From IMG/VR virus record IMGVR_UViG_3300010883_000010, positions 1-64,000 of that record: a stretch of 64,000 bases of DNA. One strand, written 5' to 3'. The notes under the pieces are model-generated. The model was not told the DNA's origin. It did no database searches and saw nothing but the letters and a program-made list of their open reading frames with translations. Numbering within the stretch: the first letter of the stretch is position 1; the number at the start of each line of letters is the position of its first letter. Below are positions 2,846 to 62,886 of the stretch, in pieces. A program made the position numbers and the translations under genes. Origin of the DNA: a virus.

Positions 2846-4285
2846 ATGAAATTTATGGAAGCTTTAAAATCAAAAAACAAAGAGACTGAAAATGGAATGC
2901 CTACTAATTCCACATCTCTTAATAATTGTCTAGATCTATTCTTTAGATCAGGTGCAATGAGAGCATCTTCTCCTATTGAAATAAACACACTTATCACTAA
3001 AGCATTTTCTGAAGATCCTGCCAGGGCAATAAAGATATTATTCTGGGTAAGGGATATTAGAGGAGGAGCAGGAGAAAGAAGATTCTTTAGAGTATCAATG
3101 AGACACCTATCTAGTTTATTTCCTAATAAAATGTCTAAGGTCTTACCTTTAATTCCAGAATATGGAAGATGGGATGACCTAGTGTCCCTTGAAGGGACTA
3201 AAGTAGAAAGACAAGTATTACTTATTATAGAGGGAGCTTTGTTAAACGAGGATGCCCTATGTGCTAAGTGGATGCCTAGAAAGGGAACGTTTGCTAATAA
3301 ACTTAGAAAATACTTAGGGTGGTCGCCAAAACAATATAGAAAAAAATTAGTTGAATTAACTAAGGTTGTTGAAACACAAATGTGTGCCAAAGAGTTTGAT
3401 AAAATAGAGTATTCTAAGGTTCCTTCTTTAGCTATGTCTAGATATGGTAGAGCATTTATAAAAAATGACGAGAATAGATTTGGCGAGTATGTAAAAGACT
3501 TACTTGATAATAAAGATGGAGTTAAAATTAATGCCGGAGCCGTATATCCATATGATGTAATAAAAGGAATGAGAGCAGGAAATGAAGCATCTCAATCTCA
3601 ATGGAATAACCTTCCTAATTATATGGAAGAAAATAAAGAAAGAATTCTTCCCCTAGTCGACGTTTCAGCTTCAATGACCAGTACGTGCGGTGGAAATCTA
3701 ACATGTTTAGACGTTGCCTTGTCACTTGGTTTATATATAAGTGAAAGAAACATTGGTCCATATAAAGATCACTTTATAACATTTTCTGGAGCACCGGAGC
3801 TTCAACATTTATCTGGAGATTTAATGTCAAGATTACAACAATTAGAAACTGCCAATTGGGATCAGAATACTGATTTATCTTTAGTATTTGATTTAATATT
3901 AAATCAAGCAATAAAACATAATATTTCTACAGAAGAAATGCCAACTCAGTTACTAATACTATCTGATATGGAATTTGATGAGGCAGTAGATACTAATTCT
4001 GGATGGAGTGAGGAAATTTCAGATTGGAATCCAAATGCACAGGAAATGATATCTAAAAAATATAATGAGGCTGGATACCAAGTTCCAAATATTATATATT
4101 GGAATATACAAAGTAGAGGTTCAAATATTCCAGTAAAATTTAATGAAGATGGAACTGCTCTAATAAGTGGATTTTCTCCCTCAATATTAAAATCTATTCT
4201 AAGTGGATCTAATATAAATCCATTAGATATAATGGATAATACAATATTTAACGAAAGATATGATAAAATTATTTTAGAAAAATAA
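2846..4285 (+). CDS. DUF2828-like protein: helical repeat region plus vWA (MIDAS) domain
   Basis: 479 aa. The N-terminal half (about 20-240) is helical with DUF2828 hallmarks: RDIRGGAGERRFFR (about 69-82) and PEYGRWDDLV (104-113). The C-terminal half is a von Willebrand A domain with a complete MIDAS: D272, S274 and S276 in DVSASM, T342 in QNTDLS and D374 in ILSDME. The layout of helical repeats followed by vWA resembles TROVE/Ro60 proteins, which bind small structured RNAs; common ancestry with Ro60 is not claimed. Two tandem hairpin RNA units lie directly downstream. The start 2846 is chosen over the internal ATG at 2855 because it is the first ATG after an A/T-rich leader. Confidence 0.8.
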   Translation: MKFMEALKSKNKETENGMPTNSTSLNNCLDLFFRSGAMRASSPIEINTLITKAFSEDPARAIKILFWVRDIRGGAGERRFFRVSMRHLSSLFPNKMSKVLPLIPEYGRWDDLVSLEGTKVERQVLLIIEGALLNEDALCAKWMPRKGTFANKLRKYLGWSPKQYRKKLVELTKVVETQMCAKEFDKIEYSKVPSLAMSRYGRAFIKNDENRFGEYVKDLLDNKDGVKINAGAVYPYDVIKGMRAGNEASQSQWNNLPNYMEENKERILPLVDVSASMTSTCGGNLTCLDVALSLGLYISERNIGPYKDHFITFSGAPELQHLSGDLMSRLQQLETANWDQNTDLSLVFDLILNQAIKHNISTEEMPTQLLILSDMEFDEAVDTNSGWSEEISDWNPNAQEMISKKYNEAGYQVPNIIYWNIQSRGSNIPVKFNEDGTALISGFSPSILKSILSGSNINPLDIMDNTIFNERYDKIILEK

Positions 4286-4301
4286 TATAAATATATAAAT
4301 A
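4286..4301 (+). promoter_or_regulatory. Candidate late promoter, doubled TATAAATA
   Basis: Two back-to-back TATAAATA octamers (4286-4293 and 4294-4301) begin at the stop codon of the vWA gene and end 3 bases before the first hairpin RNA unit. TATAAATA is the T4 late promoter core. Initiation 6-7 bases downstream would start a transcript close to the GGGATAG stem at 4305. Confidence 0.45.
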
Positions 4302-4304
4302 AAA

Positions 4305-4424
4305 GGGATAGTTACAGCAAACACTAACTATAGAAATCAAACATCTACAAATCTATCCCGATTTTTAATTAAAGGATTGCTACAGCAAATACTACTTACA
4401 TAACTAATATGAAAAGTCAATCCT
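4305..4424 (+). ncRNA. Candidate structured RNA: two tandem related hairpin units
   Basis: No ORF explains this stretch. Unit 1 (4305-4359) is closed by GGGATAG pairing with CTATCCC. Unit 2 (4373-4424) is closed by AGGATTG pairing with CAATCCT. The closing stems differ in sequence but both keep pairing, and both units share the core TACAGCAAAYACTA immediately inside the 5' strand. Unit 1 can also form ATAGTTA/TAACTAT (4308-4314 with 4325-4331), which competes with part of the closing stem. A strong terminator follows. The combination of conserved loop and compensated stems suggests a real RNA; family unknown. Confidence 0.5.
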
Positions 4425-4432
4425 GTATTATA

Positions 4433-4462
4433 AAAGAGTAACTTAACGGTTGCTCTTTTTTT
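4433..4462 (+). terminator. Rho-independent terminator after the tandem RNA units
   Basis: AAAGAGTAAC (4433-4442) pairs with GTTGCTCTTT (4449-4458) over 10 bp with one G-T wobble, with a 6-base loop and a run of seven T beginning within the 3' arm. It ends + strand transcription before the convergent gene at 4518-4742. Confidence 0.8.
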
Positions 4463-4470
4463 ATAAACAA

Positions 4471-4499
4471 AAAAAGGGAAGCCTTTCAGCCTCCCTTTT
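4471..4499 (-). terminator. Rho-independent terminator for the minus-strand genes at 4518-5201
   Basis: Read on the minus strand, AAAAGGGAGGC and its imperfect complement form a hairpin around a GAAAG loop, followed by a run of T (the A run at about 4469-4475). It lies 18 bases beyond the stop of the small membrane protein. Confidence 0.75.
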
Positions 4500-4517
4500 C
4501 AATTAAACAATGATACT

Positions 4518-4742
4518 TTACTTCTTGTCGATCAACCTAACCAGTAATATTACTGCTAATAACCCCACAAATCCAGAGTTTCCTAAAGATTCAATAATTG
4601 CGGTTACGTTTCCAATGACATCAACACCAAATACAGGTGCTCCAAAAAGTACTTGAACTAATATTCCAACTGATAACAGTGTCATAAGAGTTTCTCCTAC
4701 TCCGTCAAAGAAATTTTTAATCATTTTAAAAATGTTTTCCAT
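4518..4742 (-). CDS. Small two-TM membrane protein, holin or virion membrane protein candidate
   Basis: 74 aa. An amphipathic N-terminus (MENIFKMIKNFFDGVG) is followed by hydrophobic segments at about 18-37 (TLMTLLSVGILVQVLFG) and about 50-69 (GNSGFVGLLAVILLVRL), ending in charged IDKK. The size and topology fit a class II holin. Small Gly/Val-rich proteins of this kind are also found as structural proteins in T4-like marine phages. Function is not settled. It is the last gene of a minus run after the beta-barrel protein and is followed by a terminator. Confidence 0.6.
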   Translation of the reverse strand: MENIFKMIKNFFDGVGETLMTLLSVGILVQVLFGAPVFGVDVIGNVTAIIESLGNSGFVGLLAVILLVRLIDKK

Positions 4743-4784
4743 CTTATTTTGATTTTTTTTGGTTTTGGCATTACTACCACTGAC

Positions 4785-5201
4785 TTAAAATTTAAGCCCG
4801 AATCCAAGAGTTAGATTAGTGGTTTTTAAACCAGAATCATAAATAACCTTTGGATCTACGAAAATACTTTCATTATGAAATGAGAACATTTTGCCTACTC
4901 CCAGTTTAAGACCTTCCGTAGAAAATCCATCACTTTCGATGCATGCAAAGTACTCATTCCAAAAGTATCTCGCGGTAAAATCTAAATCTAGATCAGCACT
5001 CGAGTCAGCCTGTGCAACTGAACATCCAACAACTAAGTTGTTTGTAAAGCCATATCCTACAGTAGGACTAACCGACCAGTCGGTCCACGAAACATTCCCG
5101 ATGTCTCCTGTTCCAACATACCAATCACCTTTTGCCTGACCGTTTGATGTATAGCAAACTGCTAACATACAAACTAATAAGCTCAAAAAGAATTTTTTCA
5201 T
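4785..5201 (-). CDS. Secreted outer-membrane beta-barrel-like protein
   Basis: 138 aa. A signal peptide (MKKFFLSLLVCMLAVC, cleavage near SNG-Q, residues about 21-22) is followed by alternating polar and hydrophobic strands separated by Gly/Asn/Asp turns, and a terminal TLGFGLKF ending in Phe, the usual recognition signal for the outer-membrane assembly machinery. The mature length of about 115 residues would allow an eight-stranded barrel. An outer-membrane protein is unusual in a phage; changing the host surface or blocking superinfection are possible roles, both inferred. It lies 42 bases upstream of the small membrane protein. Confidence 0.65.
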   Translation of the reverse strand: MKKFFLSLLVCMLAVCYTSNGQAKGDWYVGTGDIGNVSWTDWSVSPTVGYGFTNNLVVGCSVAQADSSADLDLDFTARYFWNEYFACIESDGFSTEGLKLGVGKMFSFHNESIFVDPKVIYDSGLKTTNLTLGFGLKF

Positions 5202-5342
5202 TTGTTACTTGATTTTTTTAATTTAGAATCTAAAAACACATAAATCTGCTACGAGTTTCTAAACCCTATTGCGCATAATTGTTAATTACGCATTTGTAAA
5301 ACAATAAAAAATTGGGATAAACAATTTGATTTTTTTAAAAAA
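5202..5342. other. Intergenic region upstream of the beta-barrel gene
   Basis: Between the barrel gene and the sheath terminator there is no supported ORF. It contains an imperfect inverted repeat around 5269-5292 (TGCG and TAATT pairing with AATTA and CGCA, with two bulged bases) that could be an operator or part of a leader for the barrel gene. It must hold the minus-strand promoter for 5201-4518 unless the sheath transcript reads through. Confidence 0.3.
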
Positions 5343-5372
5343 AAAGGAGAAAACCGCTAGGCTCTCTCCTTT
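5343..5372 (-). terminator. Rho-independent terminator after the tail sheath gene
   Basis: On the minus strand AAAGGAGA pairs with TCTCCTTT across a 14-base loop and is followed by a run of nine T. It begins 8 bases beyond the sheath stop codon. Confidence 0.8.
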
Positions 5373-5379
5373 AGTTTTT

Positions 5380-8307
5380 TTAGAAGCTAGGCGTAAATCC
5401 AGTAGAATCTGAACTTAATTGGCCATCAGCTCTAGTAATAGTAATCCTATTAATAAATTTATGAATTCCTCTTGGGAAATTAACTAATACATCAAGTATA
5501 GCTGAGTTATTTTCAATAACCTCAGTCGTATTATTTGAAGCATCAAATATAACTTCGTAAGAAGATAATCCTCTAGCAGCAACTACTGAATCCATATAGT
5601 TTTCAACAATAGTTTTTACTCTTAATCTAGTAATTTCGTCATTGAAATCAAATAAGAAATTAAATAAGATTCTAGCAAGATCTTTTTCAATAGTAGAAAG
5701 ATTATCTCTAACGTGAGCATTATTCAATGCTGAGTTAATCTTCTGATATGCTGTATTATTTGAGAATAATAAGATACCAAACCCTCTTCTCTTAACAATT
5801 AAGTTATGTCCAATAGGCTCTAAGAAATCTCTATCTTCGTTTGTAAGTTCATATTCAACCCCTACTAATTCAGGATCGGTTATAACTCCTCGCTTACCTC
5901 CAGCTACAATCATAAATGGCGTACCATTTTTGAATTTTCTAACATATAAGTTAGAAATATATGCTGCGGGAGGAACTGACATATTTCTATTACCATTTCT
6001 AATTATTAAATTAGGGAAAGTAAAATTAGAATATGACGATAACGGAACTCCATTAACATCTTCTTCAGCAAATGCAAAAGTATAGCTAGGATTCAAGTTT
6101 AAATCTCCTCCTTCAGAAATTAATCTAGCAGAAACAAGTTTATTAGAAGTATCAATAAAGCTTGGATCAACTGATTGTTCAAATTGCTCAATAGATGGAG
6201 AATTTAACAATGCCATTGCTTGTCCGTGCATTGCAGCAAGTTTAGCTAAGTAATATTTAGAGCTAGAAGATATTTCACCCTCATATGTATCTACAATATA
6301 TCTAAAGTCGATTACTTCTTTTCCAGCAAGTGCTTCAGGTATAGATGTATAATCAAATAAGTATGATAATATATCTTGTTGTCTAGCAGCAGTAGAATTA
6401 GGAAGTAACGCGTTTCTAAGTTTAAATCCTGATAAAAATTGTCCTCTAAGAGTATCTACAAAATTATGAATTCCCTTATAAACAGATATCGTATTGTTAC
6501 TAACCTCTAGTCCAGAAATTTCATCAACACTAGGAGCCATCGTAGTAACAGTATATTCTAATCTATATGGACTTAACGTTTCTTTTGATTGAACCGCTAT
6601 AATCTTATAAAGTTTAGTTCTAGTACTTCCAATTGTGTTTCCTTTAATATAGTGATTTACTTTTATAAATTCATCAATTTCTGCTTTATTAGCAGGAGAA
6701 GCAGTCTCTATTCCTAAAATTAATTTATTAGGTTGAACTACTTGAAAATCAGTAAAGTAATTTGTATCTGATAAATCAAACTCTGCTTTAAAGTCTTTTT
6801 CATCAGCATTAATTCTAAAGTTATTCGAGTTTGGTCCCACATAAGAAACCGTACTTTGTTGATTTAATAAACTAGCATCGGAATAGCTTTCAATACTAAC
6901 GTAAGGAACAGCTCCACTATCTAAATTATCAGTAAATTTAGCGTATCCGATTATCGCATTAGAAGCATTTAAAAATTCATCTCCAGATACAATAAATCCG
7001 TTTTTATATGAAACATAAGCATTAGTATCTTTACCTGCAGCATAATAATCATTACCCGATGCAGTTGCAGTAACCAATACACAATCTGCTCCCGTTAAAG
7101 TTCCACCTGCAAGTAATTGTGCTTCAGTAATTGAGGCAGTTTCTACATATATTAAATTACCATCCGCTGGTTTAGTGTAGCTTATTGTATCTAAAAGTGG
7201 TGTAGCTAATACTCCACCCGGTCCTTCACCATCATCTGCTGGTCTTATTGAATCATCGTATCCATGTCCAACAATATCTACTCTATGAGTATCTACTTCT
7301 TGATCTACATATGACGATGTTTCTAAATCAACTAAATCTAGTTTATCAGAATCTAATGAACATAAAATTCCAGTAGATGGAAATAATCTATTAATTAATC
7401 TATCAATTGAAATTGAATTTCCAGATTGATCTATAAAGTCAGGAAGTAAGCATCCCACTGTTCTATTAATAACTTTAATTTCTCTAAGTGCAAAGAATTC
7501 AGTAGATTTATCCTCTTTTAATCCGGTAGGCTCAAAATAAGTAGCATATACTGGATCCTTAGCTAATTTTAGATAATTAGTCCAGTCTCCTGCAACCATC
7601 ATTACTTCAACCATATAGTCTGATATAAAATCATCCTTATGTAAATAAGTTGGGAATTCAATATCTGCGCCAACGGTGCTATACCATTCTTTTGCAGTTA
7701 CATCAAATCCGCTAACATTTGCGCGTCTAACCCATATTGTAGCGTTAGTTTTGCCAGTGTTGCAGAATGATAGTATTTTATTAGATGGTGATGATACCAT
7801 ACCTAGTCCTCCAGGATTAGTAACAAAGTCATCACCTAAGTCTAAATTTTTAGTTCGGTTTAAGTATTCAGAGCTAGCAAACCACAATCTTCTCTTATTA
7901 AAGAAGTTAATAGTTGGCGATTGCTGTGGTCCAGTTAGATTGTTATATGATGATGATTCAGTATTAAAGGTAGTAAAATAAGATTTATCTAAGTTTGTAC
8001 TACCCTCTGTTGTATCAAGAGGCATCACATTTAAAGCAAATACTGGTCCTTCTCTTAAGGCAACCTCTATTGAGCGATGGAAGTAACTCCCCGCTTTTTC
8101 TAATTTAGAGTCAATCATGCCAAATACTGCATTTAATGTTCTAACATCATTAATTAGTACAACAGTATTAAAGGGTCCTACTCTACTAGATCCAACTACT
8201 AATCTACCAGTAGTTAAAGGAAGAGCAACATTTTCGCTTTGATCAATCTCGACGGTATATACTCCGCTAGACTTATAATTATTTAAATTGATCGTTCTTT
8301 CAGCCAT
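5380..8307 (-). CDS. 18: Tail sheath protein gp18
   Basis: 975 aa, longer than T4 gp18 (659 aa). Sheath hallmarks are the N-terminal strand region (GVYTVEIDQSENVALPLTTGRLVVG) that begins gp18-type sheaths, and a conserved C-terminal domain with VVAARGLSSYEVIFDAS and the closing INRITITRAD region, which joins neighbouring subunits in the contractile lattice. The middle (about 130-600) holds large, poorly conserved, surface-exposed insertions. It has its own candidate late promoter and terminator, unlike T4 where 18 and 19 are adjacent; here gp19 is 14 kb away. Confidence 0.85.
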   Translation of the reverse strand: MAERTINLNNYKSSGVYTVEIDQSENVALPLTTGRLVVGSSRVGPFNTVVLINDVRTLNAVFGMIDSKLEKAGSYFHRSIEVALREGPVFALNVMPLDTTEGSTNLDKSYFTTFNTESSSYNNLTGPQQSPTINFFNKRRLWFASSEYLNRTKNLDLGDDFVTNPGGLGMVSSPSNKILSFCNTGKTNATIWVRRANVSGFDVTAKEWYSTVGADIEFPTYLHKDDFISDYMVEVMMVAGDWTNYLKLAKDPVYATYFEPTGLKEDKSTEFFALREIKVINRTVGCLLPDFIDQSGNSISIDRLINRLFPSTGILCSLDSDKLDLVDLETSSYVDQEVDTHRVDIVGHGYDDSIRPADDGEGPGGVLATPLLDTISYTKPADGNLIYVETASITEAQLLAGGTLTGADCVLVTATASGNDYYAAGKDTNAYVSYKNGFIVSGDEFLNASNAIIGYAKFTDNLDSGAVPYVSIESYSDASLLNQQSTVSYVGPNSNNFRINADEKDFKAEFDLSDTNYFTDFQVVQPNKLILGIETASPANKAEIDEFIKVNHYIKGNTIGSTRTKLYKIIAVQSKETLSPYRLEYTVTTMAPSVDEISGLEVSNNTISVYKGIHNFVDTLRGQFLSGFKLRNALLPNSTAARQQDILSYLFDYTSIPEALAGKEVIDFRYIVDTYEGEISSSSKYYLAKLAAMHGQAMALLNSPSIEQFEQSVDPSFIDTSNKLVSARLISEGGDLNLNPSYTFAFAEEDVNGVPLSSYSNFTFPNLIIRNGNRNMSVPPAAYISNLYVRKFKNGTPFMIVAGGKRGVITDPELVGVEYELTNEDRDFLEPIGHNLIVKRRGFGILLFSNNTAYQKINSALNNAHVRDNLSTIEKDLARILFNFLFDFNDEITRLRVKTIVENYMDSVVAARGLSSYEVIFDASNNTTEVIENNSAILDVLVNFPRGIHKFINRITITRADGQLSSDSTGFTPSF

Positions 8308-9212: not shown

Positions 9213-10649
9213 ATGATAATAGGAGTAGAGGTAAAAAATAATAATTTGTTAATCTCATATTATGATGAGAGCGGGAAAATATCATATATAAGTAAGCGAG
9301 TATTAGACCACGAGATATTTAATTGGGTAGAAGCAGATAAGCCATCTATTCTAAAGAATTGGAACGGCAAGAATATAAGAAAGGCGAAATCTGATGAAAA
9401 ATGGCTATCTAGAACTAGATTAGAAGAACTTTTAATAGAAAAGTTATCCCCTTCCGAAATAGAAACCATATATAACAGTGACTATTTTCCTAAGAAAGCT
9501 TTTTTAGATATCGAGATAAAGCTAACCAGTGACGAATTTCCAGATCCATCCCAAGCTAAAATGCCAGTAAATATGATATCTTTTTGTAATGAAGAAGGAG
9601 TAAGCTATGTTTTATCTAATTTAACGTCAGAGGATCATCCAACTGGATTAAGTCAATCTGAAATAGATAAGATGGAAAAAGATGTAAATAATTATTTTGC
9701 AAAAGTTATTCCACATTCAGAAGAAGATAAAATAATATTTGAGGCAGACTTTAAAATAAAACTTAAGCATTTTGATACTGAAAAAGAACTATTAGAATTT
9801 TATTTTCATAAGATATTACCAAAGCAGCCATTTATTACAGGTTGGAATGTAATTGATTTTGACTGGCAATATCTAATGAATCGCGCTAAAAAACTAAAAA
9901 TAGATCCCCTAGCAAATATGGTATCTGATAAAACCTTTTCTAAAAGTCATAAGTTACCAGTTCACGTAGGAATAATTGATTATATGAAATTATTTATGGA
10001 TCCAGGATATAAACCATATAAGGTTGTAGAAAACTATACACTAGATTATATTTCTAGGCTATGTTTAAATACAACTAAATTAAAGCACCCATATAAAAAC
10101 ATGCTAGAGTTTCAAAAGGATGTCCCTCTATTTACTATGTATAATGTCATAGATAATTTACTTGTTAAATTAATAGATGATAAACATAACATGTTAGATG
10201 TTGCCTTTTCGCTAGCAAATGTAGCACAAGTAGAGGTAAATAAAATACAAGCACCCGTTCATATAACTGAAGTATTAATGTGCAGGGAATTTTTAAACAA
10301 GAATTTAAGAATGCTTAAGAAACCATGGAATAGCGGAAATAATCAAAAAAATGAAACTTACGAGGGAGCATATGTAATGCACCCTACTCCTGGTCATTAT
10401 GATTTTGTTGCGTGCTATGATTTTAAATCAATGTATCCTAACATACAAATGCAATTTAATATTTCCCCAGATACTTATATCGGAAAGACAGGAAAATATC
10501 GAGAAACTGGTAGAGAAATAAGAACAAAAAATGAAACCTTATTTTCAAATAAGGAAGACTCAGTAACTCGTACTATTTTAAGTAGATTATATAGTGCTAG
10601 AGTCAAAGCGCAAAATAAAATAAAAAACTTAATTTATAAAAATGAGTAA
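9213..10649 (+). CDS. 43A: DNA polymerase gp43, N-terminal half (exonuclease and palm motif A)
   Basis: 478 aa of family B polymerase. Present: N-terminal domain; 3'-5' exonuclease motifs ExoI (FLDIEI, about 97-102), ExoII (ITGWNVIDFDWQYL, about 206-219) and ExoIII (ENYTLDYISRL); palm motif A (YDFKSMYPNIQMQ, about 408-420). The protein ends in the first fingers helix (RLYSARVKAQNKIKNLIYKNE) at a normal TAA. Motifs B and C are absent here but are encoded at 61477-62886, so the enzyme must assemble from two chains. No intein-like sequence is visible at the end. Split gp43 genes are known in some T4 relatives; the distance here is unusual. Confidence 0.9.
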   Translation: MIIGVEVKNNNLLISYYDESGKISYISKRVLDHEIFNWVEADKPSILKNWNGKNIRKAKSDEKWLSRTRLEELLIEKLSPSEIETIYNSDYFPKKAFLDIEIKLTSDEFPDPSQAKMPVNMISFCNEEGVSYVLSNLTSEDHPTGLSQSEIDKMEKDVNNYFAKVIPHSEEDKIIFEADFKIKLKHFDTEKELLEFYFHKILPKQPFITGWNVIDFDWQYLMNRAKKLKIDPLANMVSDKTFSKSHKLPVHVGIIDYMKLFMDPGYKPYKVVENYTLDYISRLCLNTTKLKHPYKNMLEFQKDVPLFTMYNVIDNLLVKLIDDKHNMLDVAFSLANVAQVEVNKIQAPVHITEVLMCREFLNKNLRMLKKPWNSGNNQKNETYEGAYVMHPTPGHYDFVACYDFKSMYPNIQMQFNISPDTYIGKTGKYRETGREIRTKNETLFSNKEDSVTRTILSRLYSARVKAQNKIKNLIYKNE

Positions 10650-15119: not shown

Positions 15120-15680
15120 ATGGCAGATAAAACTAAAGAAGAGTTAGCAGAAATTAGGAAGAAACGTAGAGAAGATAAAATATTTAATAATAGATATAAG
15201 TCTGGGGAAGGATTAAGAGAAGATGACGAGTGGAAACGACAAACCACAATTGCAATAAATCCAAATTACGCCGATCAATATTTAAACGACATCTATAACT
15301 ATGAAGAAACTCTAGATTATAATATTGGAATAGAAAGAATATTTAAATTTATAAAAGCAGATAGTGAATTAAATAGTTTATTATCTAGAAAAGATGAGAC
15401 CACAAAAATAAAATTATCAAAGGAAGAGATTAATAAATGCTTTACTAAAATTTTAAATTTAATGGAGCAGTCAGGTGCAGAAGCTGAACAATTCTATAAT
15501 CCAATATACATACTGGAAGCACTATCTTCTATTTTATTCATTAATTCAGCAGATCCAGTAAAAGACTATAAAAAAATATTCGATGCACTAGATGTCGAGT
15601 TTCAAGAAGAATTAATAGTTGAGCTTAATAAGAAATACCAATTTTTAGAAGGAAAAATGAATAAGCGAAAAATACATTAA
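15120..15680 (+). CDS. Hypothetical 186-aa helical protein
   Basis: Not recognised. The N-terminus is highly charged (TKEELAEIRKKRREDK) and the remainder is helical, with a hydrophobic C-terminal segment (PIYILEALSSILFIN). It ends immediately before the gp47 start, inside the helicase/nuclease operon, so a role in replication or recombination (for example helicase loading) is a positional guess only. Confidence 0.65.
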   Translation: MADKTKEELAEIRKKRREDKIFNNRYKSGEGLREDDEWKRQTTIAINPNYADQYLNDIYNYEETLDYNIGIERIFKFIKADSELNSLLSRKDETTKIKLSKEEINKCFTKILNLMEQSGAEAEQFYNPIYILEALSSILFINSADPVKDYKKIFDALDVEFQEELIVELNKKYQFLEGKMNKRKIH

Positions 15681-16793
15681 ATGTCATTAAGCGGAATACG
15701 AAATATATATCTTTTAGGAGATCTCCACTTAGGCGTACGGAATAACTCAATAGAATGGTTTGAAATTCAAAAATCATTTATATTAGATTGGTTTATACCG
15801 AAAATACTAGAAGATGGCTTTGATCCAGATCAAGACATTTTATTTCAGGCTGGAGATTGGAATCATGTTCGAGAATCAACTAATGTTAGAATATCAAATG
15901 GATCTCTAGAAATATTTAAGATATTATCTGATACTTTTAAGAGAGGAATTCACATCATTCTTGGAAACCATGACGTTTATTATAAAGACAGGAATGATAT
16001 ACACTCTTTAAAAGAGATAAGCTCAATTTTTAATAATATTAATATATATGAACAACCTGAGGCTATAAAAATTAATAGCCACAATATATTGATGCTACCG
16101 TGGGAGCACGACGCAGATATATTATCAAAAACAGTAGAATCCTATGCAAACTCATGTGATTACATATTATGTCATGCAGATATTAAAGATTTTAAATTAA
16201 ATAAATGGGCCAAAATAGAACACGGCCTAGAGTTATCTAAGCTATCATCATATAAAAGAATATACTCGGGACATATACACACCCGTCAAGAACATAAAAA
16301 TGTTTTATATATTGGTACACCTTACCACTTAGATAGGGGAGATGTTGATAACATAAAGGGATTTTATAAGCTAAATTTAGAGGGAGAAAACATAAAAGAA
16401 TATTTCTATGAAAATACCTATTCTCCTAGATACATTAAATACGATATTAATAGTATTATTAATTTAAATATAAAAGAAATCAGATCAATATTTAATAATA
16501 ATTTTGTTGATATCAGTATATCTAACGATTTAGCAAAAACGTTTCCACTTACTAAGTTTTTAGACTTAGTAAAGGATGGACATAGATCAATCGAATTTAG
16601 ACCATATTCTGATACTGAGGAAATAAATATAGAAAAGATAAGTTCAACAGGTACATATGATTATAATATATATGAGGTATTATCAGATTATATTGATATG
16701 AGGGAAATTCCAAAAACATTATCTAATAAGATAATTAATAAGTTTAAGGAAATTCACACTGAACTTAAAAATAACCAAAAATACTATGAATAA
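15681..16793 (+). CDS. 47: Recombination nuclease subunit gp47 (SbcD/Mre11-like)
   Basis: Mn-dependent nuclease subunit of the gp46/47 complex that resects DNA ends. Metallophosphatase motifs are in order: GDLHLG (about 13-18), AGDWNH (about 56-61), LGNHDVYY (about 94-101), a LPWEHD segment, CHAD (about 162-165) and SGHIHT (about 194-199). 370 aa (T4 gp47 is 339). It overlaps the following nuclease gene by 8 bases. Confidence 0.93.
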   Translation: MSLSGIRNIYLLGDLHLGVRNNSIEWFEIQKSFILDWFIPKILEDGFDPDQDILFQAGDWNHVRESTNVRISNGSLEIFKILSDTFKRGIHIILGNHDVYYKDRNDIHSLKEISSIFNNINIYEQPEAIKINSHNILMLPWEHDADILSKTVESYANSCDYILCHADIKDFKLNKWAKIEHGLELSKLSSYKRIYSGHIHTRQEHKNVLYIGTPYHLDRGDVDNIKGFYKLNLEGENIKEYFYENTYSPRYIKYDINSIINLNIKEIRSIFNNNFVDISISNDLAKTFPLTKFLDLVKDGHRSIEFRPYSDTEEINIEKISSTGTYDYNIYEVLSDYIDMREIPKTLSNKIINKFKEIHTELKNNQKYYE

Positions 16794-17358
16794 AATAATA
16801 ATAATACTACTTTTCTTAGGTTTAAACCTCGCATGTTTTAGCCAAGTTGTAGTAGAAGGAGATATCTTTAAAATAACATATTCTGAAAAATATGAGCAGC
16901 CCTTAGAAGTAATCTACACAGTAGATTGTCCTTTAGGAAAAGCGAGCCGCAAAGGAATGGATTTTTATAAAGTAGACTCTATTAAAACATCAGATAATTA
17001 TGATTATAAAGGTAATGTATGGGATAAGGGACATATGGCCCCTGCCGCTGCTTTTAATTGTGACGAGGAGACTTTGCGCAAAACATTTAGCTATTTAAAC
17101 TGTGCTTTACAACATCAAGGATTAAATAGAGGCCCTTGGAAAGAATTAGAAAGATTTGAAAGAGATTTAGCAAAATTATTCACAGTAAATGTTAAAATAC
17201 AGGTAATATTTGATAAAAATAGTGAAAAATTAGAAACTGGAGCAACTGTCCCGTCATTTTTTATAAAAACTATTACATTTGAAAATTACGAATTTATTTA
17301 TAAATTTCCAAATGGAGATGTTAAGGGAAAAAACTGGGCAACTTTTAAAATAAAATAA
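16786..17358 (+). CDS. Secreted DNA/RNA non-specific endonuclease (NUC1 family)
   Basis: 190 aa. The signal peptide (about 1-19, IIIILLFLGLNLACFS before Q) has the Bacteroidetes style with Gln at +1. The catalytic motif is WDKGHMAPAAAF (the family's DRGHxxP), with the metal-binding helix LNCALQHQGLNRGPW matching NxxxQxxxxNRGxW. It should cleave ds/ss DNA and RNA in the periplasm or outside the cell. The gene is embedded between 47 (8-base overlap) and 46 (1-base gap), which T4 does not have. Whether it degrades incoming rival DNA, host DNA after lysis, or recycles nucleotides is unknown. Confidence 0.82.
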   Translation: MNKIIIILLFLGLNLACFSQVVVEGDIFKITYSEKYEQPLEVIYTVDCPLGKASRKGMDFYKVDSIKTSDNYDYKGNVWDKGHMAPAAAFNCDEETLRKTFSYLNCALQHQGLNRGPWKELERFERDLAKLFTVNVKIQVIFDKNSEKLETGATVPSFFIKTITFENYEFIYKFPNGDVKGKNWATFKIK

Positions 17359-17359
17359 T

Positions 17360-19066
17360 ATGAAGTTTAAGAAGTTAAAGTGGAAAAACTTACTATCCTA
17401 TGGAAATATTATACAGACAATAGAGTTTGGTGATACTCCTAAGCTTGTATTAGTTGAGGGAGAAAATGGAAGTGGTAAATCTTCTATAAAGGAGGCTCTT
17501 ACTATATCCGCCTACGGTAAATCCGCTCTTCGTAAAATGAAGGATATCCCAAATTGGGTAAATAGGTCAGCATATACATATAATGAGTTTGAAACCGATA
17601 AGGGAGATACTGTCATAATTGAAAGAGGAATAGACCCAAATTTTAGTAATATTAAAATAAATGGAGTAAATCATAATCTTCCAGATAAGAGAAAAATAGA
17701 TGAATTTATAGAAAACGAGCTATTTAATCTATCTTTTCCTATTTTTTGTAATACAATAAGTTTATCTTTTGATGATTTTAAGTCATTTGTTAATTTAAAT
17801 GCAAGTGATAAAAGAAAAATAGTTGATCCTATTTTTGGAATAGATATATTATCTGATATGAAATCTAAAGTAAAAGATGACATAAAGGAAAGTAAGAACA
17901 ACCTACAAATAATTGATTCTAGAATATCCGCAAATTCGACACTATTAGAAAAGTCTATATCTCAATTAAAGAAGCTAAGAGAAAAGTTAAATGAAGAAAT
18001 AGAAGATAGGACAGAAGAGATAGGTAAAAGCATATCCGACAATAATATAAAACTATCCGATAAAAAAGAAGAGTTTTTAAAAATTAAAAATAGTATAGAT
18101 GATATTAGATCAAAGGTTGCCACTCTTAGATCAGATATATCTTCATCAAATACTAAAATATTAGAGTATGATAAGAAACTAGATATCTTTAAGAATAATA
18201 GATGTCCACATTGTCTAAGCGATCTAACTGGAGAAAAGACTTTAGAAATAAAAGAAGCAATACTTAAAAAGAAAGAATCAGAATCTGTATTAGTGACGAG
18301 CTTGACTGATAATTTTAATAAATTAAACTCTTCTATATCTAATCTAGTGAAGTCGCAGGAATCTAGCAGAGAAGAGTACTCTATAATTAAATCTGAGATA
18401 ACTTCTTTACAAAAAGAATTAGAAAAAACTCAAAAAGACACCGATAATGACCAAGAAGATTCTATTAATGAAATACTATTAACGATAAAGGGAGAAATAT
18501 CCCAATCTGAGAAAAATAGAGTTGAGCATAGTGAAAATGTAGAATTATATAGTGCTTTAGAAGACGTATTATCTGATACTGGGATAAAGAGAATACTAAT
18601 AGATAAGGTTATACCTCTTTTAAATTCTAGAATATCTGAAATATCTGACCGGCTAGATTTTAAGTTTAATTTCTCATTTGATAACGAATTTAATCCAATA
18701 ATTTTGTATATGGGATTAAATATTTCGCCAGAGAGCCTATCAACAGGGCAAAGGAAAAAAATGAACCTAATTGTTTTACTATCATTCATAGAACTAATAA
18801 AAATGAAACATAGTGGAATGAATACCATGTTTCTAGATGAAATATTTAGCGGATTAGACAAAAAGAATGTATATATGGCAATAGAGATATTAAAAGAGTA
18901 CTCAATTAAGTATAATATGACTATATTTGTAGTATCTCATGAATCTCTTCCAGAAGAATTTTTTGACACCAGGATAAACGTAACAATGCCTAATCATTTT
19001 TCAGAAATAACAATAACATCGAATATAGGAGATAAACAAGAACCTACTAATAGTATTAAAGTATAA
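17360..19066 (+). CDS. 46: Recombination nuclease ATPase gp46 (SbcC/Rad50-like)
   Basis: 568 aa, close to T4 gp46 (560). Walker A GENGSGKS (34-41), then coiled-coil arms (about 165-275 and 290-390) flanking a zinc hook RCPHCLSD (Cys282 and Cys285), then the C-terminal ATPase lobe with the signature LSTGQRKKMN and Walker B MNTMFLDEIFSGLD, followed by the FVVSHE switch. It pairs with gp47 to resect ends for UvsX and helps degrade host DNA. Confidence 0.94.
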   Translation: MKFKKLKWKNLLSYGNIIQTIEFGDTPKLVLVEGENGSGKSSIKEALTISAYGKSALRKMKDIPNWVNRSAYTYNEFETDKGDTVIIERGIDPNFSNIKINGVNHNLPDKRKIDEFIENELFNLSFPIFCNTISLSFDDFKSFVNLNASDKRKIVDPIFGIDILSDMKSKVKDDIKESKNNLQIIDSRISANSTLLEKSISQLKKLREKLNEEIEDRTEEIGKSISDNNIKLSDKKEEFLKIKNSIDDIRSKVATLRSDISSSNTKILEYDKKLDIFKNNRCPHCLSDLTGEKTLEIKEAILKKKESESVLVTSLTDNFNKLNSSISNLVKSQESSREEYSIIKSEITSLQKELEKTQKDTDNDQEDSINEILLTIKGEISQSEKNRVEHSENVELYSALEDVLSDTGIKRILIDKVIPLLNSRISEISDRLDFKFNFSFDNEFNPIILYMGLNISPESLSTGQRKKMNLIVLLSFIELIKMKHSGMNTMFLDEIFSGLDKKNVYMAIEILKEYSIKYNMTIFVVSHESLPEEFFDTRINVTMPNHFSEITITSNIGDKQEPTNSIKV

Positions 19067-19072
19067 AATTTT

Positions 19073-19942
19073 ATGAAACTTTACTCAGGTAACAGCTTTG
19101 CTCAGGTATATAAAGATAGTTTAAATGGCTTACTAAATAATCCAGAATTTATAACTAGTCCTAGGGGATTAGAAATAAAGGAAAATTTAAATGTCTCTCT
19201 TGAAATCAATAATCCTTTATTATCTACATATGATAATAGTAGAAGGGGATCTCAGGACAAATATATTGCAGCGGAGTTAATATGGTATTTCTCTGGAAGA
19301 AATGATGTTGACTATATAAAAAAATATGCAAAATTTTGGGAATCTATTCAAAATGAAGATGGAACGGTAAATTCTGCCTATGGCAATTTAATTTTTACCG
19401 AAAGAAATGATAATGAGTATAATCAATATGGATGGGCACTAGATTCTTTATCAAAAGACAAAGATAGTAGACAGGCGATTCTACATTTTAATAAACCTTC
19501 ACACCAATGGCCTAGAAATAAAGATTTTGTGTGTACAATGTATGGTATTTTTCATATAAGAAACAATAAGTTAGACTTCACTGTAACTATGAGAAGCAAT
19601 GATGCAATACTAGGTACACCAACTGATGTCGCATTTTTTACATGCTTGCAGCAACAAATGTTAGCCCATTTACAAATATTGAAATACCCTGATTTAGAAT
19701 TAGGAAAATATACTCATATTGTCAATTCCTATCACCTATATCATAAACACTTTAACCTTGTAAAAGAAATGCTTATGGAAGAATTTAAACCAATAGAATT
19801 TCCTAGGTTAGAGGCAGATTTAGTTCTCCCATCTGGATGTCCTTCAAATCAACTAAATAAGTTTATTGATAATGAAGATAATATAGAAAAAATAATAACT
19901 AGCGACGCATTGCTTAGCTGGATAAAAAATAAATTAATATGA
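19073..19942 (+). CDS. ThyA-superfamily enzyme, T4 gp42-like (dCMP hydroxymethylase or thymidylate synthase)
   Basis: 289 aa. The ThyA fold is clear: AELIWYFSG, catalytic Cys in DFVCT, MRSNDAILG, and SYHLYHKH for the substrate phosphate/ribose site. Several blocks match T4 dCMP hydroxymethylase rather than bacterial ThyA: NSAYG, DSRQAI, DFVCT (T4 DFMCT) and MRSND. In LGTPTDVA, the residue that reads cytosine versus uracil (Asn in ThyA LGxPFN) is Asp, the state known from dCMP-specific members. I infer a dCMP-specific enzyme, which would mean modified cytosine in phage DNA. Plain thymidylate synthase remains possible. It lies near dCMP deaminase. Confidence 0.7.
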   Translation: MKLYSGNSFAQVYKDSLNGLLNNPEFITSPRGLEIKENLNVSLEINNPLLSTYDNSRRGSQDKYIAAELIWYFSGRNDVDYIKKYAKFWESIQNEDGTVNSAYGNLIFTERNDNEYNQYGWALDSLSKDKDSRQAILHFNKPSHQWPRNKDFVCTMYGIFHIRNNKLDFTVTMRSNDAILGTPTDVAFFTCLQQQMLAHLQILKYPDLELGKYTHIVNSYHLYHKHFNLVKEMLMEEFKPIEFPRLEADLVLPSGCPSNQLNKFIDNEDNIEKIITSDALLSWIKNKLI

Positions 19943-20199
19943 AACAATTAACTAAAGTAACATCCTGGGCACTAGCATCCGCCCTATTAGCATTAATATG
20001 TTATTCACTATATAATATATTTTTAATTTCTGAATTTAAGTTAAACTTAAATTATATACAGTGGTTATCCATAATTATAATATTTCAATGCATAATACCA
20101 ACAGGAATAAAGCAGAATGCTGAAAATACCTCTGGAAAGTCAAATACATCGAAAAATGGATTTGTAAATGACTTCATTAACTATAAAAATTTAAAATAA
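19939..20199 (+). CDS. Hypothetical two-TM membrane protein
   Basis: 86 aa. Hydrophobic segments at about 9-31 (SWALASALLALICYSLYNIFL) and about 41-57 (IQWLSIIIIFQCIIPTG) precede a polar Asn/Ser/Lys-rich tail. The start overlaps the previous stop by 4 bases (ATGA). No family recognised. Confidence 0.6.
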   Translation: MKQLTKVTSWALASALLALICYSLYNIFLISEFKLNLNYIQWLSIIIIFQCIIPTGIKQNAENTSGKSNTSKNGFVNDFINYKNLK

Positions 20200-48276: not shown

Positions 48277-49947
48277 ATGAGATTTAAAGAATTAACACAA
48301 AAAGATAAGGACTTTTTCAAGCAAACATACCTTGATAAAACATATAAGTGGGATCAAAGAATAAGCATATTAATGGAATATGCTGGAGTATCTAGACGTA
48401 CTATACAAAAATGGCTTTCTAAACTTGAGCTAACTTCGTACATAGAGGCAGAATCCCCGGAGCTTATTAAAGCAAAGGAAAAGAAATTTGATAAAAAGAA
48501 GAAAAGATTTATTATATCTTGGGCACAGAATAATACTCCGATTCATGAAAAATTTCTAAATAACATTGAAGGGTACGCTGAGTATATAGATGCGAGTATA
48601 CATATAATTGCAGGCAGATATAGAAATCCTACTTCGATATTCACTGATAGTAAAAAAGATATTTGGCACGATAGAGTAATACAATATTTAGATGCAGCGA
48701 GACATGATGTTCATGAGTATGTATCTATAATGTCAGATGTTAAAATTCAACCGACGGCAATTAATCCAATGACTGGTTTACAAGGAATGAGTGGAATAAA
48801 TTCTTGTGTATTCGGTTCTCCTAAAACTCAATTTATAACTATTCCAGTATTGGAAGGATGTAAGCCAAAGGCAATGGTTACTACTGGCGCATGTACTGTT
48901 AAAAATTATACAGATTCTAAATCTGGTAAAAAAGGAGAATTTCACCATACTCTAGGATTTGTTGTTGTTGAAATAAAAGATAACGAAACGTTTTTTATTA
49001 GACAAGTCACAGCAATGGAAGATGGAAGTTTTACCGATCTATACTATGACATATCATTTAATGGATCAGAAGATCCTATTGAGTTCGACACTAAAACTGA
49101 AGAGATAAATTGGTCCACTTCTAATTTTGGAGCTGAGCCAATTAAATTAAATGGAGAATCTATAGTTTCTAAAATTAAAGAAATAGATGCATGTGTTCTT
49201 GGAGATATACATTATGGACATGAAGATGGCGAAGTAATGTCATCAACCTTTAAAATGCTAGATATTCTTAAACCAAGTCATGTAATTTTACATGATGTAT
49301 TTGACGGAAGCTCAATAAGCCACCATCAAATGAAAGATCCTTTTATTCAATATAGAAAGGAAAAGCATGGAACTAATAATTTGAAAAAGGAAGTAGATTA
49401 CATGATAGATGAACTTTCTAAATTTAAAAAGTTTAAAAATGTAATAATTGTTAGAAGTAATCACGATGATTTTGTAGATAGGTGGTTAAAAAATACAGAT
49501 TGGAAAAAACAACCAAGCTATATTAATTCTCCAGAATATATGAGATATAGCCAAATATTATTAACTCAATATGCAGGAGAAGGAGAAGTAAAAGGAGTTA
49601 TCCCCGCTCTTATAAATGAAGAATATCCAGAATACATTACATTAGGAAGATCTGAAAGCTATAAAGTCAATGGTTGGGAAGTAGGTCAACATGGAGACGT
49701 AGGATCAGGCGGAAGTAGAGGATCTTTACAGCAATTTAGAAAACTAAATACTAAAATTATAGTTGGACACTATCATTCTCCTGGTAGATTTGATGGAGCT
49801 CTTGCTGTTGGGACGTCATCTAATTTAAGGGTTGGATATAATCTTGGACCGAGTGGATGGTTGCAATCCCATGTTATTATACATAAAAATGGAAAGGCTC
49901 AGCATATTAATTTTATAGACGGAGAATATACTACGTTAAAATATTAA
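48277..49947 (+). CDS. T5 A1-like protein: HTH plus metallophosphatase nuclease
   Basis: 556 aa. The N-terminal helix-turn-helix (ISILMEYAGVSRRTIQKWLSKL, theme residues about 28-49) is followed by a long middle domain (TTGACTV, HHTLGFVVVE). A calcineurin-type metallophosphatase with VLGDIHYGHEDG (about 306-317), LHDVFDG, VRSNHDDF and GHYHSPGRFDG follows. This order matches the T5 pre-early protein A1, needed for host DNA breakdown and completion of DNA entry. Recognition is from memory of the family. Its stop overlaps the convergent lysozyme-like gene by 4 bases. Confidence 0.65.
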   Translation: MRFKELTQKDKDFFKQTYLDKTYKWDQRISILMEYAGVSRRTIQKWLSKLELTSYIEAESPELIKAKEKKFDKKKKRFIISWAQNNTPIHEKFLNNIEGYAEYIDASIHIIAGRYRNPTSIFTDSKKDIWHDRVIQYLDAARHDVHEYVSIMSDVKIQPTAINPMTGLQGMSGINSCVFGSPKTQFITIPVLEGCKPKAMVTTGACTVKNYTDSKSGKKGEFHHTLGFVVVEIKDNETFFIRQVTAMEDGSFTDLYYDISFNGSEDPIEFDTKTEEINWSTSNFGAEPIKLNGESIVSKIKEIDACVLGDIHYGHEDGEVMSSTFKMLDILKPSHVILHDVFDGSSISHHQMKDPFIQYRKEKHGTNNLKKEVDYMIDELSKFKKFKNVIIVRSNHDDFVDRWLKNTDWKKQPSYINSPEYMRYSQILLTQYAGEGEVKGVIPALINEEYPEYITLGRSESYKVNGWEVGQHGDVGSGGSRGSLQQFRKLNTKIIVGHYHSPGRFDGALAVGTSSNLRVGYNLGPSGWLQSHVIIHKNGKAQHINFIDGEYTTLKY

Positions 49948-61476: not shown

Positions 61477-62886
61477 ATGGACTTAAGTAAAGAAAAAAAC
61501 ATAAAAAAATTAGGACTTCAACAAGGGGCAATAAAAATTCTTATTAACTCAATATATGGAGCATTTGGAAATAAGTGGTTTTATTTCTATGATCCAGATA
61601 TTGCACAGTCAATTACTCTTCAGGGACAAGATATGATTAAATTTGCAAATCAAGCAATTGACTTCTATTTTAAGAATAGGTGGCATATTGATTCTGAATT
61701 ACATGAAAAATTAGGAATATCTGACAAAACAATAATTCCAATAGAAAAAGATGAAAATATTGCTGTATATACAGATACAGATTCTACATATGTAAACTTT
61801 GGCCCGGCAATAAGATCAATTCAAGGATTAGATTTAACCGAAGACGAGAGCGTAAAGCTAGTTATTGCAATCGATGATAATAGAATTAGTGAATTCTATG
61901 ATAAGGCATTCATAAAATGGTCAGAACGATTTAATACAACAAATAGACAAACATTTAAGCTAGAGAATATATCAACCGAAGGAATATGGATTAAGAAAAA
62001 AAATTATAGCTTACGTGTAGTTTACGAACCTAACCCAAAACAAGAATTATTTCAGTTAAAAGAGCGGTATCTTCTCATTAAAGGATTAGAGCCGATTAAA
62101 TCATCTTATCCAATTTGGGCAAGAGAACATCAAAAGAAATTTCTAGATTACATTATGAAAAATGGTAAAGAGTTTGACTTAGAGGAAGATCTTATTCCAA
62201 TGATAAAGAAAGTTAATGATGAATTCAATACCTTAGATCCGGATGATATAGCTATGAATTTTAATATACGCCAATATGATAAGTATGTGGAAAGCGAAGA
62301 AGACTGTTTATTTAAAAAAGGAGCAACTACTTACCCAAAAGCGGTAATCCATCATAATCACCTAGTTATTAAAAATCAATTAGAAGGAAAATATCCTAAA
62401 CTTAGACAAGGTAACAAAATTAAATTTTTATACTGTGAACCCGGTCCTCAAGAAATAGATGTATTTGCATATAATCCTGGCAACTATCCTGAGGAATTTG
62501 CGCCAGATATTGATACTAGGCAGCAGTTCTTCATATTAATAGTTGAGCCAATTAATAGAATTTTAGGAGCAATTGGACTAAATAAATTAGATGAAAATCT
62601 AAAGAGAGCAGTTGAGTTTAAAACAACTAAAAGTAAAAAACCTCTTACTGATGCACAAAAATATCCGTTTCATGTAATTAATAGCGAAACTTTGGAACAC
62701 GAAGAAGTAGATGAAAAATTCTGGAGCTTAATTGAAAATAAAGATTCAGACATACCGGAAGACATGTTTGATGAATATCTTCAAACTATAACAAGATATG
62801 GATTAAATACAGTTATTCTAATAAACAAGAATTTAACTCCTTATAAAAAAAGAATATCTAAAAAGCTAGAACTTGATGTTTCATAA
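61477..62886 (+). CDS. 43B: DNA polymerase gp43, C-terminal half (fingers, palm motifs B and C, thumb)
   Basis: 469 aa. Begins in the second fingers helix (LGLQQGAIK) and continues with motif B KILINSIYGAFGN (about 20-32), then motif C VYTDTDSTYVNFG (about 97-109) with the catalytic Asp pair, and IWIKKKNYSL (KxY motif). It has its own ATG and upstream gap, so it is a genuine separate gene. Together with 9213-10649 it makes a complete family B polymerase of about 947 aa. No C-terminal clamp-binding motif like T4's was seen. Primase follows with an 11-base overlap. Confidence 0.92.
   Translation: MDLSKEKNIKKLGLQQGAIKILINSIYGAFGNKWFYFYDPDIAQSITLQGQDMIKFANQAIDFYFKNRWHIDSELHEKLGISDKTIIPIEKDENIAVYTDTDSTYVNFGPAIRSIQGLDLTEDESVKLVIAIDDNRISEFYDKAFIKWSERFNTTNRQTFKLENISTEGIWIKKKNYSLRVVYEPNPKQELFQLKERYLLIKGLEPIKSSYPIWAREHQKKFLDYIMKNGKEFDLEEDLIPMIKKVNDEFNTLDPDDIAMNFNIRQYDKYVESEEDCLFKKGATTYPKAVIHHNHLVIKNQLEGKYPKLRQGNKIKFLYCEPGPQEIDVFAYNPGNYPEEFAPDIDTRQQFFILIVEPINRILGAIGLNKLDENLKRAVEFKTTKSKKPLTDAQKYPFHVINSETLEHEEVDEKFWSLIENKDSDIPEDMFDEYLQTITRYGLNTVILINKNLTPYKKRISKKLELDVS

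Follow-up and report, generated by a model that had tools for sequence, protein, structure and literature searches.

A putative exported NUC-family nuclease encoded at the gp47-gp46 insertion hot spot of a Bacteroidetes phage

Introduction

Export of enzymes during infection is seldom ascribed to apparently virulent phages. The gp46/47 pair of phage T4 takes part in host DNA breakdown. Why, then, does a phage genome carry a gene for a nuclease with a signal-like N-terminus between gp47 and gp46? The locus lies in a 64,000-nucleotide stretch of phage DNA (IMG/VR record IMGVR_UViG_3300010883_000010, positions 1 to 64,000), hereafter the window. An initial annotation proposed that an exported nuclease made together with the gp46/47 nuclease would degrade DNA in a coordinated manner on both sides of the membrane, possibly to block superinfecting DNA. 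By analogy, the closest studied relatives in kind are the secreted DNases of Campylobacter CJIE elements, which block transformation. According to the excerpted text of PMC4372405, the DNases of the CJIE1, 2, and 4 elements are predicted to be extracellular, degrade extracellular DNA, and prevent natural transformation. In Bacteroidetes, Gln immediately follows the cleavage site in, on average, 71% of predicted signal peptidase I substrates (PMC5837995).

Materials and methods

Relatives of the NUC protein were collected by a scan of IMG/VR. The scan found 108 stretches, of which the best 80 were kept, and these contained 67 distinct NUC proteins. A NUC gene was scored as lying elsewhere than gp47-gp46 when profiles made from near relatives found no gp47 or gp46 relative in the locus, the contigs being fragments.

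A single gp46 query found two relatives only; hence, alignments were used for the gp46/gp47-seeded searches. In two of these searches, the best 80 of 178 loci and the best 80 of 467 loci were kept. Among the loci kept, 177 (window included) carried both gp46 and gp47 and gave 81 distinct junction sequences. The distinct junctions are not independent: L105 and L108 are identical in gp46 and gp47, and L102-L104 are nearly so. Insert classes were set by motif, and a Pfam scan covered a subset of each class.

Hydropathy, motif, and conservation served as criteria for the signal peptide. A first, stricter Q pattern matched 45 of the 67 distinct homologues (best 80 of 108 loci) and was widened after obvious misses. 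Active-site conservation was read from alignment A3, which comprises 44 proteins of the family. The concatenated gp47 and gp46 tree comprised 71 of the 81 junctions, ten having been dropped for short genes. AU tests were run on 36 of the 71 rows, which were chosen by hand.

Results and discussion

The NUC gene is tightly packed between gp47 and gp46

The NUC gene starts with ATG at 16786 and stops with TAA at 17356-17358 (Table 1). The initial annotation correctly described its 8-base overlap with gp47 and its spacing of one base from gp46, the ATG of which is at 17360. Judging from the overlap, gp47, NUC, and gp46 are probably carried on one transcript, and a NUC protein encoded at this place would probably be produced at about the time of the replication proteins. 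Neighbours in the window include thymidylate synthase-like and dCMP-deaminase-like genes, names that represent a reading of the sequence. The GC content of the NUC gene (29.8%) is close to that of its neighbours (27.5-30.0%) and thus gives no sign of very recent arrival. In comparisons with the L002 counterparts, dN and dS were 0.119 and 1.66 for NUC and 0.104 and 1.85 for gp46; for gp47, dN was 0.106 and dS was saturated. Purifying selection on NUC is strong and equals that on gp46 and gp47.

Table 1. Coordinates of features at the NUC locus of the window, and classes of insert found between gp47 and gp46
Feature	Position	Strand	Remarks
gp47 / SbcD-like nuclease subunit	15681..16793	+	upstream of NUC; phrog_100, 8.2e-57
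NUC nuclease ORF, exported (predicted)	16786..17358	+	190 aa; PF01223, 6.3e-25; phrog_14168; AlphaFold mean pLDDT 92.7; EndoG/EXOG/Serratia nuclease fold
Probable Sec/SPI signal peptide, residues 1-19	16786..16842	+	Gln20 (16843-16845) is the expected new N-terminus; hydropathy, Q-motif
Cys48, candidate disulfide partner of Cys92	16927..16929	+	Cys92 at 17059-17061; both Cys in 42/44
DKGH, NUC signature (DRGH in characterised members)	17023..17034	+	D80, G82, and H83 in 44/44; K81 in 40/44
NRGPWKELE, with metal-site Asn114, Trp118, and Glu122	17125..17151	+	all three invariant in 44/44
gp46 / SbcC-like subunit	17360..19066	+	downstream of NUC; phrog_77, 7.6e-83
NUC_K (window family) at gp47-gp46			4 distinct junctions (among loci kept)
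NUC_R (second NUC subfamily) at gp47-gp46			3 distinct junctions (among loci kept)
SNase at gp47-gp46			6 distinct junctions (among loci kept); without signal peptide
SET-domain-like protein at gp47-gp46			7 distinct junctions (among loci kept)
~180-aa protein without assigned family at gp47-gp46			6 distinct junctions (among loci kept)

The product belongs to the Endonuclease_NS/NUC family

The product of the window gene is a protein of the Endonuclease_NS/NUC family. Its PF01223 (Endonuclease_NS) profile match scored 88.6 bits (cut-off, 23) and covered residues 28-188, and its PHROG match, annotated as 'nuclease', had a value of 3.3e-20. EndoG and EXOG are its PDB relatives by sequence, with Serratia nuclease weaker. 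The AlphaFold model (pTM 0.85) has the beta-beta-alpha metal fold of EndoG and Serratia nuclease. The top Foldseek match was mouse EndoG (6m3f; 6.6e-14, TM 0.79 by query length); Serratia nuclease (1qae, 1.4e-11) and Anabaena NucA (5.4e-11) were also clear, and EXOG was among the best folds.

The full NUC1 active site claimed by the initial annotation (DKGH, NRGxW) stands as regards the conserved residues: R55, D80, G82, H83, N105, Q109, N114, W118, and E122 are invariant in all 44 proteins of the A3 alignment. The signature Arg does not, since position 81 is Lys in 40 of the 44 and Arg in 4, a conservative change. We take the spacing to match R57, R87-G-H89, N110, Q114, N119, W123, and E127 of Serratia nuclease. 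By the roles assumed from Serratia nuclease and EndoG, His83 would be the general base, and Asn114 and Glu122 presumably act as metal ligands like the NUC metal Asn/Glu. Serratia nuclease, NucA, EndoG, and EXOG thus resemble the window protein in fold (Foldseek TM ~0.8 by query length), signature, and metal-site residues; the window protein differs in having DKGH instead of DRGH, a short mature part of ~170 aa, and the conserved Cys48-Cys92 pair, and in being phage-encoded. Cys48 and Cys92 are jointly absent in two of the 44 proteins. These two are sister rows, so the joint loss represents one event. A pair that is kept or lost together would suit an oxidising compartment, and a Cys48-Cys92 disulfide is possible. 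Based on these likenesses, we tentatively assign to the product the activity of a non-specific DNA/RNA endonuclease.

The N-terminus has the features of a Bacteroidetes signal peptide

The N-terminus, MNKIIIILLFLGLNLACFS/Q, is hydrophobic and has Gln at the expected cleavage point. It consists of an n-region, a hydrophobic core, and a small residue followed by Gln at +1. Among the 67 distinct homologues from the best 80 of 108 loci, 65 have a 9-residue stretch with mean hydropathy >2.2, and 51 have the Q-motif after the hydrophobic stretch. The N-termini of the remaining 16 are hydrophobic without Gln, and four of them are lipoprotein-like (L043, L045, L050, and L052). The same Q-motif occurred in 2.2% of 13,400 control windows of mature sequence. 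By comparison, 155 of the 935 other genes in the NUC loci had a hydrophobic stretch, with a scan range slightly different from that of the NUC count. The window and L002 proteins differ at 11 of 20 residues in the signal region, where the pattern is kept, and at 23 of 170 in the mature part. With the conserved Q-rule motif far above the chance rate of ~2%, export of the NUC protein is well supported as a prediction. The Bacteroidetes-style signal peptide of the initial annotation is supported by hydropathy, Gln20, and the Q-motif of the homologues.

The hydrophobic+Q pattern was also found in 45 of 935 other genes of the NUC loci, which supports Bacteroidetes hosts. Clustering of NUC genes with other exported genes was not seen, the pattern occurring in 9 of 219 near genes vs 42 of 716 far genes. 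A lipoprotein reading of the window protein through Cys17 was rejected: the residues before Cys17 fit a lipobox poorly, and Gln20 fits signal peptidase I.

Most NUC homologues lie away from gp47 and gp46

Within the best 80 of 108 loci, the NUC gene was found between gp47 and gp46 only in L001-L004 (3 of 67 distinct NUC proteins); the other 64 lie elsewhere. Neighbours at the other sites include genes for a 4HBT thioesterase, a flavodoxin-like protein, an M43 peptidase, a DNA methylase, and a phosphoesterase. The homologue of Flavobacterium phage immuto_3-5A (50.6% identity) lies downstream of genes for ribonucleotide reductase and a resolvase-like protein. The 38 loci obtained by a GTDB scan were mostly in MAGs of Flavobacteriales or other Bacteroidota, with chromosomal and phage contigs taken together. 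Being mostly away from gp46/47 and having varied neighbours, the NUC gene behaves as a mobile accessory gene among phages of Bacteroidetes. The family persists in many phage groups (best 80 of 108 loci). This distribution does not support coordinated action with gp46/47 as a general rule.

In L027, the gene directly upstream of NUC (3786-6008) encodes an M43-type metallopeptidase with a hydrophobic N-terminus ending in ...FITFSQ, which is possibly exported.

An insertion hot spot at gp47-gp46

Among the loci kept, 55 of the 81 distinct junctions are empty (gap of -4 to 29 bases) and 26 are filled. Half of the filled ones (13/26) hold nucleases of three groups, NUC_K, NUC_R, and SNase (Table 1). 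NUC_R proteins are 26-29% identical to the window protein and have DRGH and a hydrophobic N-terminus. The Pfam scan confirmed two of three NUC_R inserts (PF01223), three of six SNase inserts (PF00565), and three of seven SET inserts (PF00856), and it found no family for the two of six ~180-aa inserts covered. SET-domain proteins lie between gp47 and gp46 in phage loci L189, L193, L195, L199, and L200, with PF00856 in 3/3 scanned. Named phages yielded no close gp46 relative, the matches listed being at ~28%.

Control junctions were compared in the same contigs. The dnaB-orf186 junction was filled in 0 of 74 cases and the gp46-TS junction in 1 of 55. The orf186-gp47 junction was filled in 39 of 75, apparently by one ~75-aa family. 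The TS-dCMP deaminase junction was filled in 9 of 19, and the inserts printed were one type of small membrane protein. Varied content is thus found only at gp47-gp46 among the junctions compared, and this junction is an insertion hot spot.

A strict 'nuclease slot' interpretation of the junction is weakened by the SET-domain and ~180-aa proteins and by nucleases making up only half of the filled junctions among the loci kept. Insertion of homing endonucleases was rejected: no LAGLIDADG, GIY-YIG, HNH, or similar domain was among the Pfam matches, and the NUC_K, NUC_R, and SNase inserts scanned match PF01223 or PF00565.

Two further small genes were noted at the control junctions. The ~75-aa family between orf186 (15120-15680) and gp47 (15681) is absent in the window and present in relatives, e.g., L094:2668-2895; the one member scanned matched nothing in Pfam or PHROG. 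A small protein with hydrophobic stretches is encoded at 19939-20199 (+), on the downstream side of the thymidylate synthase-like gene. Its relatives or similar small membrane proteins lie at the same place in many related phages, and its size and form, to our mind, recall T4 Imm.

The SNase inserts bear on where the window nuclease acts. They carry no signal peptide, so the slot as such implies no exported function and a nuclease in it can be cytoplasmic. An intracellular role is conceivable: the N-terminus would anchor the protein or be skipped, and NUC would help gp46/47 in host-DNA breakdown in the cytoplasm. Its position between gp47 and gp46 would suit such a role. We nevertheless consider it very unlikely, given the Q-rule pattern shared by most homologues, the 64 of 67 (best 80 of 108 loci) that lie away from gp47-gp46, and the description of such DNases as toxic inside cells. 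According to the excerpts of PMC4372405, intracellular expression of such eDNases can cause cell death, and the insert has no obvious inhibitor gene.

NUC_K occupies the junction in two lineages

The gene is shared by relatives at this position, contrary to what a recent random insertion, the alternative named by the initial annotation, would leave. Proteins of the same family at the same junction are 100% (L001/L085), 82% (L002/L086), and ~62% (L003-L004/L105/L108) identical to that of the window. In the gp47+gp46 tree, NUC_K falls in two separated places, the window pair and L105/L108. The nearest phages to the window pair have an empty junction, whereas L105/L108 stand beside the SNase clade. 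Forcing the four NUC_K rows together was rejected (p-AU 5e-6), as was forcing all seven NUC-bearing rows together (p-AU 3e-6). In the NUC_K tree, path length places L003 closest to the window pair, without support. As a sister relation of the two is unsupported, locus exchange fits as well as two independent insertions: either NUC_K entered this junction twice or it was passed between lineages. The empty junctions nearest to the window pair likewise give no support to coordination with gp46/47 as a general rule. NUC is probably linked to gp46/47 by the timing of expression and by a site that permits insertion, not by a shared reaction.

NUC might instead be a neutral passenger at a junction that tolerates inserts, bringing no steady benefit. 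The SET-domain and ~180-aa inserts and the empty junctions of related phages agree with this. Purifying selection as strong as that on gp46 and gp47, the presence of NUC_K at the junction in two separate lineages, and the persistence of the family in many phage groups argue otherwise, and we regard a passenger as unlikely.

A tentative role outside the cytoplasm

The explanation that we favour, with some reserve, is that of an accessory enzyme, inserted at the gp47-gp46 hot spot, that would cut periplasmic DNA or DNA in the cell's surroundings, with a barrier to incoming DNA as the preferred function. The Sec machinery of the host would export the protein, signal peptidase I would cut before Gln20, and the mature enzyme would act in the periplasm and/or outside the cell. 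During infection, it could destroy DNA outside the cytoplasm, namely superinfecting phage genomes, transforming DNA, and surrounding free DNA, and after lysis it could continue on released DNA. Within the cytoplasm, a NUC-family enzyme would be expected to threaten the DNA of the phage itself. NUC_K and NUC_R are each inserted alone, with no obvious inhibitor gene alongside; thus, no immunity gene came along, and export, which would keep the nuclease off the phage DNA, fits this. Against a barrier, DNA that a tail passed directly across both membranes would escape a periplasmic nuclease. The Lys in place of the signature Arg and the absence of clustering with other exported genes also count against the favoured explanation. 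No relative with a superinfection-exclusion phenotype and no direct link of NUC to superinfection or transformation were found in the searches run. Under a broader proposal, accessory nucleases would be swapped in repeatedly at a docking site between gp47 and gp46 of Bacteroidetes myoviruses, and exported NUC would form a barrier in the periplasm and surroundings that destroys DNA of competing phages and transforming DNA as long as the infected cell is exploited; this appears doubtful.

A close rival of the DNA barrier is lysate clearing or nutrient salvage, in which exported NUC would chiefly break down host and environmental DNA surrounding the cell. Acting at or after lysis, or during infection, it would free virions from DNA, dissolve DNA-based biofilm, or supply nucleotides and phosphate. 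The Campylobacter DNase CJE1441 degrades biofilm DNA, according to the excerpts of PMC4372405. In favour of this rival, the window NUC lies beside gp46/gp47 and the thymidylate synthase-like and dCMP-deaminase-like genes, and the immuto_3-5A homologue lies near ribonucleotide reductase. However, the neighbours differ widely between phages, which indicates no steady link to nucleotide metabolism, and both the window and immuto genes sit with replication-type rather than recognised lysis genes. This use of the enzyme is possible rather than probable.

Relation to known systems

By sequence, the window NUC would be an element-encoded secreted nuclease. It shares with the CJIE1/2/4 DNases (dns, cje0566, and cje1441/nucA) a predicted signal peptide and the character of an element-encoded non-specific nuclease, and nucA of the CJIE4 phage gave a tblastn match (30% identity over 62% of the query). 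The CJIE DNases belong to temperate Campylobacter elements, whereas the window represents a Bacteroidetes phage with contractile-tail genes, a Q-rule peptide, and insertion of NUC into the gp47-gp46 operon. The NUC of Flavobacterium phage vB_FspM_immuto ('DNA/RNA endonuclease G'; 50-51% identity over 91% of the query) is included in A3. Unlike the window gene, it is flanked by a resolvase-like gene upstream and a lectin-domain gene downstream. Porphyromonas phages encode proteins with signal peptides of the Bacteroidetes type; in the excerpts of PMC10367356, these Q-rule proteins are reported as genes of unknown function, unlike the window NUC. A limited literature search brought up no description of an exported NUC nuclease from phages of Bacteroidetes, and the words nuclease, signal peptide, and Immuto are absent from PMC7077304. 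The NUC family is known; as far as our searches show, neither its wide distribution with Q-rule peptides among phages of Bacteroidetes nor the insertion hot spot at gp47-gp46 has been described.

At least 67 distinct NUC versions with host-adapted signal peptides in environmental phage contigs suggest a phage interest in extracytoplasmic DNA, whether in connection with rival phages, with the uptake of genes, or with free DNA serving as a resource. The cultured phage immuto (host Flavobacterium sp. LMO8) carries a homologue and makes NUC export testable now. The variable gp47-gp46 junction is also a simple place to seek further accessory genes.

Other genes of the window

A family-B DNA polymerase is split into two genes, 9213-10649 (+) and 61477-62886 (+), ~51 kb apart. 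The N part matches positions 19-140 of PF00136 and the C part positions 131-237; visual inspection of the split ends showed no evident intein remnant. A 479-aa protein with DUF7788 and DUF2828 is encoded at 2846-4285 (+). The 556-aa product of 48277-49947 (+) matches phrog_1745 'DNA transfer protein' (1.8e-149) and is, we presume, probably a relative of phage T5 A1. In T5, A1 is essential for host DNA degradation, according to the excerpted text of PMC13250531.
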